The position numbers and the translations under genes were made by a program. Under the pieces are notes generated by a model. It was given only the letters and a program-made list of their open reading frames with translations. It was not told the origin of the DNA and searched no databases. A stretch of 35,377 nt of DNA, from NCBI GenBank assembly GCA_903850745.1, contig CAINMH010000040.1:1-35377 (forward strand), in the 5' to 3' direction. Position 1 is the first letter of the stretch. Each line of letters starts with the position of its first letter. Positions 1 to 35,377 of the stretch are shown one piece after another. Source of the DNA: an uncultured bacterium. Its GTDB lineage: Bacteria; Actinomycetota; Actinomycetes; S36-B12.

Positions 1-222
1 GTAGAAAATGAGTTTCCAGACAACCTGCCGCGAACAACAGCCTCAACTCTCGAGAGTGGATTAGCTGGGGTCTTCAGCGGTTACGCGCCACAGGTCATGG
101 CAGTTTCCGCGGAGTTCGGGCTAGACCCGGGTGATCTGTGGCGTGCGCTCGGTGAGCACAAGATCGTGGCAGCGCAAGAGTCCATGATCCGCGAGATCGC
201 AATCGCACTCCGCATGGGCTGA
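1..222 (+). CDS. 4-hydroxy-2-oxovalerate aldolase-like protein, C-terminal fragment (5' end outside window)
   Basis: The reading frame is open from the first base and stops with TGA at 220-222, so only the last 73 residues are seen. The segment LAGVFSGYAPQVMAVSAEFG followed by a G-L-D-P-x-D-L stretch, L-G-x(4)-V-x(2)-Q-E-x-M-I and an I-A-x(2)-L ending resembles the C-terminal communication domain of DmpG/HsaF-type aldolases. Those enzymes cleave 4-hydroxy-2-oxoacids in meta-cleavage pathways and pass the aldehyde to an acylating dehydrogenase. The catalytic TIM barrel is not in the window, so activity cannot be judged. No dehydrogenase partner is visible downstream; the next gene converges on this one after 20 bases. 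The family call rests on remembered C-terminal motifs and is moderate. Confidence 0.6.
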   Translation, partial: VENEFPDNLPRTTASTLESGLAGVFSGYAPQVMAVSAEFGLDPGDLWRALGEHKIVAAQESMIREIAIALRMG

Positions 223-30685: not shown

Positions 30686-32944
30686 GTGAGAGAGCAGCCC
30701 TTCGTGGACTCCCCCGATGCCGCCACCATCACCCGCACAGACGGAACCTTCACCGCATTGTGGCGGTGGTATTGGCCATATGTCCGGCCCTACCGCACGC
30801 GGCTGGTGTTTCTGGGCGTGATCACCGCCATCATGCTTGCCTGTCAGGCGCTAATTCCGCTACTGGTCGAGAGCATCCTGCATCACGGCGAGTGGGACAC
30901 CAAGGCAATCTTGCTACTGCTCGCCATGGTTGCCATTCAGTTGGCGACCGGGCACTGGTCTCACCTCGATGCTCATGCCATCGCGAGTTCTTCGGCTTCT
31001 CTTTTACGTGTCCGCGTGTTTGATCGCACGCTACACAGCAAGATCCTTCGTCAAGATGGGCTCGTTCGCTCGTCAATTGTGAGCCGGCACACGACGGACG
31101 TAGACCACGTCAGTGAAGCGTTCGAATCGACTGCAAGTGCGGGAATTCCTGGTGTACTTCGCGTGATCATCAGCCTGAGCCTGCTGACATTCGTGGAGTG
31201 GCGGGCCGGTCTTGTCATGACCGCCGCCTCACTGTTGTTTGTTCTGCTGAGAATCTATCTGGGAAAGTCTTTGGTCGTTGCTGACCGCGACCGGCTCTCC
31301 GCCAGTAGTCGTGTCGGCGAAAGTGTCGATGAGGCACTTACCGCGCCCAAAGTTATATCAGGACTGCGCTTAAGCAGCTGGGTTCAATATCGTTTTGGGG
31401 GACGCACTCACTATCTCGAGGAGACTTCGCATCGTCAGGGGCGACGGGTAGCCGATCTCGTGACAGGTGCGCACTTGGCGGGGCTTGTCGGACTACTCGC
31501 AGTCGTGATCTTCGGACTGACCAGCGGCGGTGAGCGTCTCGCTGCAGTAGCGGCAGCCCTGCTCTATGTCGAAGGAGTTGTTAAGGGACTAGAAGCACTT
31601 CCGAAGTGGATTCGATGTGTCCAGTTGGCAATCGTGAGCCGCCATCGTATTGATCAAATTCTTGTCGATGCCAATCAGCTGACGATGCCTAAGGCCGCCT
31701 TCGACGCGATTCCCACACTGCAAGAGCCCTTCGATTTCCCACCTGAGTGCATGGTGGGAATCGTTTCGCCAAATGGATACGACGTCGACTTGGCTCTCGC
31801 TGCGATATCTGGAAGCGGTGGTGACCCCAACGATTGGCGCATCACATTTGAGGGCAACCCAGTTCGATCTTCGAGCTCAGACAACGGCGTAATCCACCTA
31901 CCGCAGGAGCCTCTCGCGTTCAACGCATCGATAACCGATCACTTTCGCGGAGTAGCTCCGGACTTATCGGAGACAGCCATAATAAAATTGCTGGAGTGTG
32001 TGGGCCTCGGCTATCTCGCAGCAATGCCCGAGGGCCTGACGCGTCTACTTGGACCAGTCGGAACTAGCCTCACCATTGACGAGCGACAGCGCTTAGGACT
32101 TGCGTTAGCGATAGCAACGGATTCGCGATTGCTTTTGGTCGGCCCATTGCTCGCTCTAGCGGATACAGATACCGCCTTGTCGTTGATCCAACCACTGCGC
32201 GACAGAAAGTTGCCGGCAATCGTTGTAAGCGCTCGAACCGCGGAAGTTGCGGCCAGTATGGATCTGGTTGTTTTCGCGTCCGAGGCCGGCATGCGCATGG
32301 ATACCCATGAACACCTGCTCGTCGATAGCCCGGAGTATTCGCATCTGTGGTCAGCCCGACTGTCCACAAGCGATGTTGACCTCAGCGTGCTCGGCATTGA
32401 CGAGAGCGCCCAAGGAACGTTGCTGACCCGGCTTGTCACCGAGAGCTACGGCTCTGGTGAAATCATCTATCGCGAAGGCGCACCCGCGGATCGCATTGTC
32501 TTCACGATCTCCGGCAAGATCGAGATCCTCGCTACCGACGCACAAGGAAATTCGCGACGTGTTGCTGTGCTCGGCCCCGGCAACCATTGTGGTGACCTTC
32601 GATTGACGCCCGGAGAGGTTCGAGCAGAGACCGCGGTAGCAATTGATGACACTGTCGTGCGCAGTCTTTCGCGCGAAGCCATCTCCGCTGGGATGTCTGG
32701 TCTACTTGATCGCACTGCGAGCGAACGACGCATCGTCTCGACAATTCTGCGTTCCGGCCCAAGCACTGCCGAAGAAATCCAAGCCGTGCTGCACGATATT
32801 GACGAAGCCGAGTTGCTCTCCGCATTAGCGCTTCTGAAGGGTGACGGAGCGATCACGGAGGAGGACGGTCGCTACCGCACCGTGCAGAAGCGGGCCACCA
32901 AATCTGGAGCAGCCGACATCCTGGATCGAATTGGTGGGCTGTAG
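30686..32944 (+). CDS. ABC-exporter-like membrane protein with degenerate ATPase domain, cNMP-binding-like domain and winged-helix-like tail
   Basis: The 752-residue protein starts like a type I ABC exporter: membrane helices at about 38-60, 74-90, 155-190 and 260-300, with the cytoplasmic element R-V-F-D-R-T-L and S-R-H-T-T-D-V-D-H-V (133-142). Residues 340-555 align by eye with an ABC ATPase that has lost its chemistry. Walker A reads G-I-V-S-P-N-G-Y-D-V-D (358-368) without the Lys-Ser/Thr; the signature reads L-T-I-D-E-R-Q (462-468) instead of L-S-G-G-Q. Walker B reads L-L-L-V-G-P-L (482-488) without Asp-Glu, and the H-loop His is Ala516. The Q-loop Gln407 (L-P-Q-E-P) remains. Residues 575-670 resemble a Crp-type nucleotide-binding domain (G-E-I-I-Y-R-E-G, V-L-G-P-G-N, C-G-D-L-R-L, R646). 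Residues 680-735 resemble a winged helix (S-T-A-E-E-I-Q-A-V-L, L-L-K-G-D-G-A-I-T). ATP-driven transport seems unlikely; a cNMP- or ligand-gated sensor or scaffold is inferred. Confidence 0.8.
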   Translation: MREQPFVDSPDAATITRTDGTFTALWRWYWPYVRPYRTRLVFLGVITAIMLACQALIPLLVESILHHGEWDTKAILLLLAMVAIQLATGHWSHLDAHAIASSSASLLRVRVFDRTLHSKILRQDGLVRSSIVSRHTTDVDHVSEAFESTASAGIPGVLRVIISLSLLTFVEWRAGLVMTAASLLFVLLRIYLGKSLVVADRDRLSASSRVGESVDEALTAPKVISGLRLSSWVQYRFGGRTHYLEETSHRQGRRVADLVTGAHLAGLVGLLAVVIFGLTSGGERLAAVAAALLYVEGVVKGLEALPKWIRCVQLAIVSRHRIDQILVDANQLTMPKAAFDAIPTLQEPFDFPPECMVGIVSPNGYDVDLALAAISGSGGDPNDWRITFEGNPVRSSSSDNGVIHLPQEPLAFNASITDHFRGVAPDLSETAIIKLLECVGLGYLAAMPEGLTRLLGPVGTSLTIDERQRLGLALAIATDSRLLLVGPLLALADTDTALSLIQPLRDRKLPAIVVSARTAEVAASMDLVVFASEAGMRMDTHEHLLVDSPEYSHLWSARLSTSDVDLSVLGIDESAQGTLLTRLVTESYGSGEIIYREGAPADRIVFTISGKIEILATDAQGNSRRVAVLGPGNHCGDLRLTPGEVRAETAVAIDDTVVRSLSREAISAGMSGLLDRTASERRIVSTILRSGPSTAEEIQAVLHDIDEAELLSALALLKGDGAITEEDGRYRTVQKRATKSGAADILDRIGGL

Positions 32945-32957
32945 TGCCGCGATCTAA

Positions 32958-32993
32958 AGAGCTGCGCGCTCAGTTCTCTAGGCGAGCAGCTCT
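32958..32993 (-). terminator. Possible weak terminator between convergent genes
   Basis: AGAGCTGC (32958-32965) and GCAGCTCT (32986-32993) are perfect 8-base arms around a 20-base loop, partly inside the 3' end of the GNAT-like gene. On the minus strand the stem exits into TTTAG, a short T-run. It lies 13 bases beyond the stop of the plus-strand pseudo-ABC gene and could serve that transcript too. Confidence 0.35.
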
Positions 32994-33674
32994 CTGTAAC
33001 GAACCCACCACTGACTCATGCTCGGGCGGCAATCCGTAATGATCGATCAGCAGCGCCGACAAGCAGCGCGTAGCGAGTTCAGACGCCGGCAGGCCCACCC
33101 CGGCGCCTATCGGCAACAACATCGCCGAATAGTCGTCGAAGAAGGCAAGATCACCGAATTCCTTCCAGTGAATGCCATGAATCGGTTCGCGATATTCGGG
33201 ATCGGCGAGAATGAATCCACACGATTGCCATCGCTCAATTAGGTGTGCGTCACTTTCCAAGACAGTCGCATAGACCTCAAATCCAAGTTGATTCGCTTCT
33301 TGTACGCATACGTCTAGTAGGAAATTCACGAATTGCTCTAGATATTCCCGAGCCAATCCCCTACGGGCATCCCGATCAATACCTCCAAAGAGCATCATGA
33401 CCACGCCGTGTCGCACATTGAGATTGAAAATCCACTCGCCGACTGGCTCGCCTTGACGAAAGACGAGCCAAGCATGAACGATCTCTCCTTCGGGCGGCTG
33501 TCCCGTGCGAAGTTGTGATCGCAAATCCTCCAGCACATGCGAGTAATCCGGGAAGAAACCGTTGTGGACTACTGCAAGTGTGTCGAGCAAAGGTTCGCGC
33601 TCACTCTCGCTAAGGACAGGGTCTAGAACATCGATCACCGAGAATTCTGGAACCTGCGGGATCGGCGTTAACAA
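32970..33674 (-). CDS. GNAT-like N-acetyltransferase family protein
   Basis: With the start proposed here the protein has 234 residues. Residues 65-160 resemble a GNAT fold: the strand pair A-W-L-V-F-R-Q-G-E-P-V-G-E-W-I-F, the putative acetyl-CoA loop G-I-D-R-D-A-R-R-G-L-A-R-E (98-110) followed by a long helix, and the C-terminal strand and helix H-L-I-E-R-W-Q-S-C-G-F. The C-terminal 65 residues are not recognised. I place the start at TTG 33672-33674, right after the HAMP gene stop, with AAGGAG overlapping that stop four bases upstream. A longer frame to 33752 runs inside the upstream gene. Substrate unknown. Third gene of the minus-strand operon. Confidence 0.55.
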   Translation of the reverse strand: MLTPIPQVPEFSVIDVLDPVLSESEREPLLDTLAVVHNGFFPDYSHVLEDLRSQLRTGQPPEGEIVHAWLVFRQGEPVGEWIFNLNVRHGVVMMLFGGIDRDARRGLAREYLEQFVNFLLDVCVQEANQLGFEVYATVLESDAHLIERWQSCGFILADPEYREPIHGIHWKEFGDLAFFDDYSAMLLPIGAGVGLPASELATRCLSALLIDHYGLPPEHESVVGSLQRAARLEN

Positions 33675-33675
33675 G

Positions 33676-34770
33676 TCACTCCTTGCCGAGGTCTTCGCGC
33701 ATTCTCTCGCGCATCTCCGCCGCCTTGCGCGCGAGATCAGCAAACGAGTCATTCTCCGTGATTTCGCGGACGGCCTCAGCGCGGCGGGTTTGGTCGATCT
33801 CTACCTTCAAGCGCTGGACTTCCTGGCTCAGGGACTTCTCACGAGCCCCGACCTTGCGGGCCATGGTGGCGAAGGATTCAGCTAACTCGTACATCTCGTC
33901 GGGGAAACGTCCGCCTGAGAATGAACTGAGGTCCAGATCGTATTCACCATCCGCAATCCGTGCTGATGCTGCCGTGAGTCGCTTAAGCGGACGGACCAGC
34001 GTGGTGGACAGGAGTAGCACGACTCCAAGGAGGATCAGGTAAGCCGCGATCAGGATTGGCAGCAAGCGGGACAGCACATCGCGCTTAACCTCATCTACAT
34101 AAGTGATTGGATAGTCCACGCCAAGTCCGCCGACAGCAACACCGTTCTTGTCCAGAATCGGCACATACGCGGAGATCCAAGATCCATACGCGTCTGTGTA
34201 GGCGGGTTGAAGAGTCGGCTGGGCAAGTCCTTCATTCATCAGTTGGTTCGTCTCGACAGAACTCGTGTTCGAGATGGCCACCTTGTAGGTATAACCGATC
34301 TGCGGATCGAGGAAAAACCCTGACGACGCCGCTGCATAGAGCAGCCCATCCTTGGGATCCTTGAAATAGGCGTAGGAAAGGGCCTCGCCGGTGATGTTGT
34401 TCAAGTTATAGAGAGCGCGCGCTTGGTCTGCATAGAGTGGACTAGACGGATAGCCCAGCCCAAATGGATTAGATTCGTCTACTACCGGCGGAACCGTGGT
34501 GATCAGTTCGACGAACTGCTCAGCATTGATGCCCAAGGCTCCACCGGTCGCGAACGTTTTCAGTTCGTTCTCCAAACGTGTCTGCGCATTCTGGGTACTG
34601 AACTGAAGTACGTAGAGCGCGATGAAAACAAAAACCACCGTGAATGCAGTCGCGTATGCGGCGAGGAGCTTCCAGCGCATGGTGATGCGAATAGACCTTT
34701 TGGACTCTCCGCCTGGAGATTTCGGGGAGACCTCTACCTGAGATTCCACTGCAATTGATTCAGTTGACAT
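33676..34770 (-). CDS. Membrane sensor with extracytoplasmic domain, HAMP and coiled coil, no output domain
   Basis: The 364-residue protein has a charged N-terminus, a first membrane helix (about 35-57), an extracytoplasmic region of about 175 residues that may be Cache-like (Y-G-S-W-I-S-A-Y-V-P-I-L-D-K-N-G-V-A-V-G-G-L-G-V-D-Y, 195-220), and a second helix (233-256). A HAMP domain follows (V-R-P-L-K-R-L-T-A-A-S-A-R-I-A-D-G-E-Y-D, to about residue 308), then a coiled coil ending E-I-T-E-N-D-S-F-A-D-L-A-R-K-A-A-E-M-R. No kinase, cyclase, GGDEF or methyl-accepting domain follows, so it must signal by protein contact. It starts three bases after the permease stop and is followed one base later by the GNAT-like gene. 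Confidence 0.8.
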   Translation of the reverse strand: MSTESIAVESQVEVSPKSPGGESKRSIRITMRWKLLAAYATAFTVVFVFIALYVLQFSTQNAQTRLENELKTFATGGALGINAEQFVELITTVPPVVDESNPFGLGYPSSPLYADQARALYNLNNITGEALSYAYFKDPKDGLLYAAASSGFFLDPQIGYTYKVAISNTSSVETNQLMNEGLAQPTLQPAYTDAYGSWISAYVPILDKNGVAVGGLGVDYPITYVDEVKRDVLSRLLPILIAAYLILLGVVLLLSTTLVRPLKRLTAASARIADGEYDLDLSSFSGGRFPDEMYELAESFATMARKVGAREKSLSQEVQRLKVEIDQTRRAEAVREITENDSFADLARKAAEMRERMREDLGKE

Positions 34771-34773
34771 TAG

Positions 34774-35377
34774 TCACTCTTCCCCGAGCACTATGGAGCG
34801 GTTTTGTTTACGTCGACGCAGGCGCCAGTTCAAAAGACTATCTTCCCAGCCACGGCGCACCCGCAAGGCCAGCGGAATGGCGAAGATCGTGATGAGCGCT
34901 CCGAGTGCCGGAATCACCCATAGTTGGCCAGCCAAAAGGCCGAGCGCCGCCAGTGGTCCCGCGATGATGAGGCCCACTGAAATCGGTAGCAGATCCACGA
35001 TGAACGAGACGCGAGTCCTCCGCTCGTCAGGCACAAGAGCCAGTGCTGCGCGGCGCGCATTTTCATCCACACTCCAGCGCGGGATAAACCATGCCGCAAG
35101 ACCGAGTGCTAGGAGCGGATACGAGCGAAATGCGATTCCACAGGCGAGAAGAATCCCGGCGAGCACGGTCATGACCGGAAGAATGATGAGAACACCAGGT
35201 ATGCCGATACGGTCCTGGAGTTTTTCGGCGAAAAATATTTGCAGCAGGAGACACATAATCAGCGACGCCAGCATTACCGAGCCAAAGAAGAACTGAAGCT
35301 GACCTGCATCGGAGCCGATGAGTTCGCCCTCGCCTGTCATGAAAGACAGGAATACGGTCATGCCGCCGATAAAGGTA
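34774..35377 (-). CDS. Polytopic MFS/NTT-like permease, C-terminal part (5' end outside window)
   Basis: The frame is open to the right edge, so at least 200 residues are seen and the N-terminus is missing. About six hydrophobic segments are visible, separated by short loops. One loop, D-E-N-A-R-R-A-A-L-A-L-V-P-D-E-R-R-T-R-V-S-F-I-V-D, resembles the loop that carries L-P-x-E-x-R in MFS-related nucleotide-translocase-like (NTT/Npt) permeases. This family call is from memory and weak; membrane location is clear. The tail is very basic (R-R-R-K-Q-N-R). It is the first gene seen of the operon with the HAMP sensor and the GNAT-like protein. An apparent ATG at 35361 lies inside a membrane helix and is probably not the real start. 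Confidence 0.6.
   Translation of the reverse strand, partial: TFIGGMTVFLSFMTGEGELIGSDAGQLQFFFGSVMLASLIMCLLLQIFFAEKLQDRIGIPGVLIILPVMTVLAGILLACGIAFRSYPLLALGLAAWFIPRWSVDENARRAALALVPDERRTRVSFIVDLLPISVGLIIAGPLAALGLLAGQLWVIPALGALITIFAIPLALRVRRGWEDSLLNWRLRRRKQNRSIVLGEE

Follow-up and report, generated by a model that had tools for sequence, protein, structure and literature searches.

The window, that is, the whole stretch of DNA analysed here (35,377 nt), coincides with one entire contig (C40); the genome is actinobacterial, 2.57 Mb in size and 99% complete. It carries the gene of an ABC exporter-like protein, hereafter pseudo-ABC, in which an exporter membrane domain is followed by an ATPase-dead nucleotide-binding domain (NBD), a cyclic-nucleotide-binding (cNMP)-type roll and a winged helix, and it also carries genes of a recurrent cassette (Table 1).

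Table 1. Positions in the window of the pseudo-ABC gene, its domains and motif equivalents, and the adjoining cassette genes.
Feature	Residues	Position	Strand	Remarks
Pseudo-ABC exporter gene	752 aa	30686..32944	+	Intact ORF, GTG start
Type IV exporter transmembrane domain	20–330	30743..31675	+	Pfam ABC_membrane, structure, conservation
Coupling regions ICL1 SRHTTDVD and ICL2 GESVDEA	133–140 and 211–217			Conserved
ABC NBD fold without catalytic motifs	349–556	31730..32353	+	VIA-align, HMMER alignments
Walker A equivalent SPNGYDVDL	361–369	31766..31792	+	Lys position is Val367 (consensus GxxGxGKST)
Signature equivalent LTIDERQRL	462–470	32069..32095	+	LSGGQ replaced by LTIDE; L462 invariant; R467/Q468/R469 kept
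Walker B/D-loop equivalent LLLVGPLLALAD	482–493	32129..32164	+	Asp-Glu replaced by G486-P487; D-loop Asp493 kept
H-loop equivalent	514–518	32225..32239	+	His replaced by Ala516; His in 0/41 sequences
cNMP-type beta roll	573–665	32402..32680	+	PF00027 (cNMP_binding, residues 586–667), E=5.3e-16; Foldseek to CRP/GlxR
Phosphate-binding-cassette (PBC) equivalent GNHCGDLRLTPGEVRAE	632–648	32579..32629	+	Asp for Glu, Arg646 kept
Winged helix	677–732	32714..32881	+	Acidic third helix; long Crp-type C-helix missing upstream
C-terminal tail ending KSGAADILDRIGGL		32882..32941	+	Conserved as K.G...LLDRL
GNAT-like cassette protein (cluster C4)		32970..33752	-	Conserved neighbour in 12–16 loci; true start probably nearer 33680
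HAMP receptor with SiaA-like linker and tail EITENDSFADLARKAAEMR, no output enzyme		33676..34770	-	PF00672; NCBIfam SiaA match 232–363; alignment
MFS-like cassette protein, C-terminal part, cut at contig end		34774..35376	-	Overlap with contig C181

The exporter fold is recovered along both halves of pseudo-ABC. Pfam finds ABC_membrane at residues 45–225 (PF00664, E=1.4e-11) and the cNMP_binding domain, and reports no ABC ATPase domain; both halves are matched by NCBIfam exporter models, and a profile of 30 homologues aligns with P-glycoproteins and other ABCB exporters, again over both halves. The AlphaFold2 model of the full protein has an ABC exporter fold (mean pLDDT 73, the domain arrangement being uncertain), its best Foldseek matches are ABC exporters, and in VIA-align residues 348–560 superpose on NBD287 with Z 18.8 and 2.8 Å across 184 residues. 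The first-pass annotation, made from the letters alone, had described a frame intact over 752 codons with a type I exporter membrane domain and an ABC-like domain, and had named a non-ABC fold for residues 340–555 as the outcome that would speak against it; the frame and both domains are as it described them, and the fold obtained is that of an ABC NBD.

Motif loss, retention and selection in the nucleotide-binding domain

The motif positions of pseudo-ABC were assigned through the profile alignment to P-glycoproteins (HMMER), and their conservation was scored on an alignment of 41 pseudo-ABC sequences. The position of the Walker A Lys is occupied by Pro, Ala, Ile, Arg, Thr, Ser, Val or Met, and by Lys in none of the 41; in Walker B, Gly predominates in place of Asp and Pro or Ser in place of Glu, and the Asp/Glu pair occurs in 0/41. 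Moreover, LSGGQ is replaced by L[ST]xxE in most homologues, both signature glycines being gone in the window protein. The divergent homologue L134 (27% identity, outside the main group) has also lost the motifs, its Walker A reading GRSASGIET and its Walker B LNDPS. The profile alignment thus agrees with the first-pass annotation on the replacement of the Walker A Lys, LSGGQ, the Walker B Asp, the catalytic Glu and the H-loop His, and the homologues with intact Walker motifs that it had thought worth looking for were not found: no relative with an intact ATPase is present among the 41 aligned sequences, which all have the same losses. Its statement that the Q-loop Gln is kept is right for the window protein (Gln407) and wrong for the family, in which Gln occurs in just 4 of 41 aligned sequences.

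What is retained has a different distribution. The NBD positions conserved at 90–100% are L462, R467-Q468-R469, D493 (36 Asp and 5 Glu in the 41 sequences), H541, L544, Y551 and W555, and the Walker A and H-loop positions rank among the most variable. In ABC exporters, the elements lost here are those that bind nucleotide, and the signature helix and the D-loop are turned towards the membrane domain or the other NBD. The parts of pseudo-ABC which contact the membrane domain or a second subunit survive, namely the coupling loops, the signature Leu, the RQR helix and the D-loop Asp.

Pseudo-ABC is an old, conserved dead ATPase under strong purifying selection: pairwise dN/dS lies between 0.055 and 0.17 over the full-length genes and between 0.06 and 0.12 over the dead NBD by itself. 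Since the Walker A Lys, the Walker B Asp/Glu pair and the H-loop His occur in 0/41 homologues, the motif loss is not a recent decay, and the same losses in 41/41 sequences together with purifying selection indicate a role other than ATP-driven pumping, which supports the selection for a non-hydrolytic role that had been suggested from the intact frame. The loss of every catalytic motif could also be taken as the mark of a decaying pseudogene or an assembly artefact, to which we assign next to no probability, because open frames with the same losses are found in dozens of genomes, dN/dS is well below 1 and a copy is present in the complete genome of the isolate IMCC26256; a pseudogene or single-genome decay is ruled out by these homologues and by dN/dS.

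The carriers of pseudo-ABC are freshwater actinobacteria, and its distribution is patchy: homologues occur in 28 of 118 related genomes and in 15 of 395 genomes of the class, and also in MAGs named Nanopelagicales, Acidimicrobiales and Microthrixaceae. When 396 phylum-wide genomes were searched with the C-terminal domain, the fusion was found only in this genome, in IMCC26256 (G487) and in G556, and the frames of the weaker cNMP matches contained no Walker A motif. No copy of pseudo-ABC was found on plasmids, and PADLOC gave no defence-system match for it. Six of the homologue-bearing MAG records (L057, L058, L068, L079, L082 and L086) are titled Bifidobacterium breve, which is probably a mislabelling. 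Between the window and its sister species L056, synonymous divergence is 0.23–0.36 in the C-terminal domains (window 32402–32941) and 0.9–1.1 in the membrane domain and NBD, a contrast that suggests recombination or gene conversion.

Pseudo-ABC could also be the dead half of a heterodimeric ABC exporter, whose functional half is encoded elsewhere; pumping would then go on at a single site, as it does in Pdr5 or TAP. A degenerate site is a common feature of heterodimeric exporters, NBS1 of Pdr5 has substitutions at the Walker A Lys, the Walker B Glu and the H-loop His alike (PMC7756269), and intact NHLM-type ABC genes lie near pseudo-ABC in three loci (L063, L079 and L083). In heterodimeric exporters, however, the half without Walker A, Walker B and His still gives its signature to the Walker A of the partner, Pdr5 being the extreme case (PMC7756269), and this intact signature on the degenerate half is lacking in pseudo-ABC, whose own motif has become LTIDE (L[ST]xxE in most homologues), so that both composite sites would be damaged. 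Signature loss besides Walker loss therefore makes a working site in a heterodimer improbable; in addition, an ABC half is not a constant neighbour, being present in 5 of 41 loci, two of which have unrelated ABC types; a partner half encoded at an unlinked site may nevertheless exist. We judge the heterodimer unlikely, and the same two points, the lost signature and the lack of a constant ABC neighbour, favour a homodimeric, ATP-independent receptor or scaffold. An assignment of pseudo-ABC to the NHLM bacteriocin exporters (TIGR03796/TIGR03797) was tried and rejected, TIGR03796 scoring 25 bits against a cut-off of 853.

The C-terminal roll, the winged helix and the ligand

When modelled alone with AlphaFold2 (mean pLDDT 81), residues 563–752 form a beta roll, a short helix, the winged helix and a short tail helix, and this C-terminal 190-residue model matches whole CRP/GlxR chains in Foldseek; the long dimerisation C-helix of Crp is missing in the predicted model, where the short helix stands between roll and winged helix. 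The PBC in the window is G636-D637...R646 and the family pattern is GDLRLTxGExRAE, with the Asp in 40/41 and the Arg in 36/41 sequences, from which the binding of a phosphate-bearing ligand by the roll appears possible. Class III cyclases, the one class searched for, are absent from the genome of the window and from 24 of the 28 pseudo-ABC carriers, so that self-made cAMP is unlikely as the ligand. The third helix of the winged helix (704–722) has a median charge of -3 and is acidic in almost all homologues; therefore, judged from its sequence, the winged helix would be likelier to dock on a protein than to bind DNA. The Crp-like domain described by the first-pass annotation is found by Pfam (PF00027), AlphaFold2 and Foldseek, and its small winged-helix tail in the AlphaFold2 model and the Foldseek matches; its reading of the PBC (Glu to Asp637, Arg646 remaining) stands, and the missing cyclases strengthen its doubt about cAMP as the ligand.

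The match to whole CRP/GlxR chains and the Arg kept in most sequences would also agree with a membrane-anchored, cAMP-responsive one-component transcription regulator held by a relict exporter, but the absence of class III cyclase from the genome itself and most carriers, the change of the PBC Glu to Asp, the missing dimerisation C-helix and the acidic third helix all speak against it, and we regard it as very improbable. Among the NCBIfam cNMP-domain models, the best match to the roll is the encapsulin model NF041163 (32.6 bits). Chain 9bje, which we take to be a family 2B encapsulin shell protein, aligns to the roll with GD in place of GE, and Arg646 is without an equivalent in that alignment. 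For the insertion domain of family 2B encapsulins, which adopts the cNMP fold, a lack of cyclic-nucleotide binding has been reported (PMC12407261), and this related fold likewise counts against a cAMP regulator.

A similar C-terminal end is found on another protein. An acetolactate-decarboxylase-like protein (PF03306; domain identified on L036), in which the HxH...GGH residues are kept, ends in a winged helix and LLDRL-type tail like those of pseudo-ABC (hhalign P=6e-7). Its gene is an operon neighbour in several pseudo-ABC loci and adjoins pseudo-ABC at L060 1722–2711, L061 1248–2237, L067 6990–7979 and L134 8239–9234.

The gene cassette and the proposed signalling role

Clustering of the neighbours gave four recurrent partners of pseudo-ABC, i.e., a MinD/ParA-like ATPase, a Cache-HAMP or HAMP receptor, an MFS-like protein and a GNAT-like protein. 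The ATPase has 254 aa and the motif HSFRGGTGKSN, its best NCBIfam matches being a KGGVGR-variant ATPase and archaeal MinD. The receptors have no output enzyme, and their post-HAMP tail matches the linker of the phosphatase SiaA. The MFS-like protein has no Pfam match, and the GNAT label was given by inspection, the cluster C4 protein having no family match. At its right end, the window is overlapped by exactly 141 bases by contig C181, which carries the N-terminal part of the MFS-like protein and then the MinD/ParA-like ATPase and rpoC, and the cassette is thus located between rpoC and rpsL. Because this partner lies on another contig, the link to the ATPase and to Cache-HAMP proteins was missed by the first-pass annotation.

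Pseudo-ABC is tied in the genomes to the ATPase and to Cache-HAMP receptors. The ATPase is present in 27 of the 28 carriers versus 8 of 90 non-carriers (Fisher p=1.9e-18, the genomes not being independent), and common descent can be an alternative cause of this co-occurrence; from the 8 relatives that have the ATPase alone, it follows that the ATPase works without pseudo-ABC. Of the 40 loci whose flank reaches 3 kb or more, 29 have a HAMP or ATPase gene within 6 kb of pseudo-ABC, and in about ten loci a HAMP gene follows directly downstream on the same strand, with a gap of at most 165 nt or a small overlap. IMCC26256 carries both pseudo-ABC and the ATPase, and another Cache-HAMP-like gene is directly upstream of its pseudo-ABC. 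Counting against the cassette link, 20 loci have long flanks on either side, and a clustered HAMP or ATPase gene is nearby in just 14 of these.

Several further arrangements were seen around the cassette. With respect to the pseudo-ABC gene, the HAMP–GNAT pair has opposite orientations in the window and in the sister species L056, and NHLM-type exporters lie near the cassette in several actinobacterial loci. The MFS-like protein has one or two copies of D.W.FL..RK near its N-terminus (window 34774–35376 with L132 1–1073; L056, L060, L061, L067, L072 and others), a motif that resembles the HAMP tail D.F..L..KA.E[ML]R and the MinD-contact start of MinE, and that may be a candidate docking motif for the MinD-like ATPase. 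Proteins of about 500 aa, with an N-terminal part that looks by eye like an RsbW-type ATPase and a GNAT-like part, adjoin the ATPase gene at L060 9213–10697, L134 10465–12117 and L140 10063–11228.

The same ATPase family (53–59% identical) also occurs in cassettes of Nostoc, Pseudanabaena and Deinococcus, in which pseudo-ABC was not found. In Nostoc, the gene has a Cache protein and a cNMP-domain protein as neighbours; in Pseudanabaena, it adjoins NHLM-type peptide exporters and a cNMP-domain protein; and in Deinococcus, it is accompanied by HAMP proteins, an MFS-like protein and a second ATPase. A Deinococcus plasmid locus (L153 8001–11156) has two MinD/ParA-like genes, the second with the variant HSFMRGTGKST. 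In Streptomyces, the neighbours of the ATPase gene are SpoIIE and anti-sigma genes. Another neighbour of the ATPase, in Nostoc and in actinobacteria, is a permease-like protein whose N-terminal helical domain (RRANTLLFLIE..TA) is conserved (L152 5385–7979, L135 297–2234, L137 10408–12639), and a shorter version of this domain is present in L036 and L134.

The company that pseudo-ABC keeps in the genomes, a MinD-like ATPase and a membrane sensor, makes sensing or signalling its most likely function, in place of pumping. A reading that keeps transport, in which pseudo-ABC is an ATP-independent facilitator, channel or scramblase gated by a ligand at the cNMP-type domain, would make use of the complete exporter membrane domain, the conserved coupling loops and the attached ligand-type domain. 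ABC proteins that are not pumps exist, CFTR being a channel and SUR a regulator; however, CFTR and SUR still bind ATP, and the tie to receptors and the MinD-like ATPase fits signalling at least equally well. We consider such gated transport unlikely.

For the non-pumping receptor or scaffold, docking on a cassette partner, we put the chance at about even. Without pumping, the membrane domain, probably dimeric, would change shape on an external or membrane signal. The conserved coupling loops and, in the dead NBD, the RQR helix would relay this change to the Crp-like roll, at which a small non-cAMP ligand may act as a gate. The relay would continue from the roll to the acidic winged helix and the LLDRL tail; these may bind one of the cassette proteins, with the MinD-like ATPase and the HAMP receptor as the likeliest partners, and such docking would control the localisation or activity of the partner membrane complex. 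More broadly, and tentatively, pseudo-ABC could be a new bacterial membrane receptor made from a whole ATP-free ABC exporter, in which signals at the membrane domain, perhaps with a non-cAMP ligand at the roll, cross the dead NBD and reach a winged helix by which a MinD/ParA-type ATPase switch is controlled, and transporter folds (ABC, MFS, APC-like) and Cache-HAMP receptors would be alternative inputs to it.

Comparison with known systems

No description of the pseudo-ABC family or of its signalling cassette was found in the literature searched, most subscription papers lying outside it, and to our knowledge every degenerate ABC protein in earlier descriptions either retains nucleotide binding or forms a complex in which one ATP site or more still works. 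Pseudo-ABC, a full-length exporter conserved with both halves of its site lost, its coupling machinery kept and a Crp-like module added, would be evidence that signalling can make secondary use of the exporter's conformational switch. Its association with a widespread MinD/ParA-like ATPase, which stands beside Cache-HAMP proteins and, in some cyanobacteria, beside peptide natural-product genes, is a testable handle on the signalling cassette.

Like the CRP/FNR regulators (Mtb CRP, GlxR), pseudo-ABC has a beta roll followed by a winged helix, but it differs from them in the PBC Asp, the lack of a long C-helix, the acidic third helix and the fusion to a membrane protein. The likeness to family 2B encapsulins is limited to the cNMP-type domain, for the HK97 shell fold is absent and the rest of pseudo-ABC is an ABC exporter. 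SUR1/SUR2 would be alike in that an exporter fold serves as a regulatory subunit, a likeness that on the pseudo-ABC side depends on the proposed role and for which membership is not claimed; SUR binds nucleotides and partners a K+ channel, unlike the reading preferred for pseudo-ABC. The degenerate-site transporters (Pdr5, TAP and others) share changes in Walker A, Walker B and the H-loop, whereas Pdr5 and TAP retain one working composite site and pseudo-ABC has neither its own signature nor a constant partner half. Finally, pseudo-ABC resembles the type IV (ABCB-like) exporters TM287/288, BmrA and MsRv1273c/72c in the membrane fold with its coupling helices and loops, the NBD fold, the D-loop Asp, and the signature Leu with the next helix; it differs from them in the added Crp-like and winged-helix domains and in the Walker A Lys, Walker B Asp/Glu, signature glycines (LSGGQ) and H-loop His, which pseudo-ABC and its aligned homologues lack, so that it is an ABC exporter by fold and not a working one by the defining motifs.
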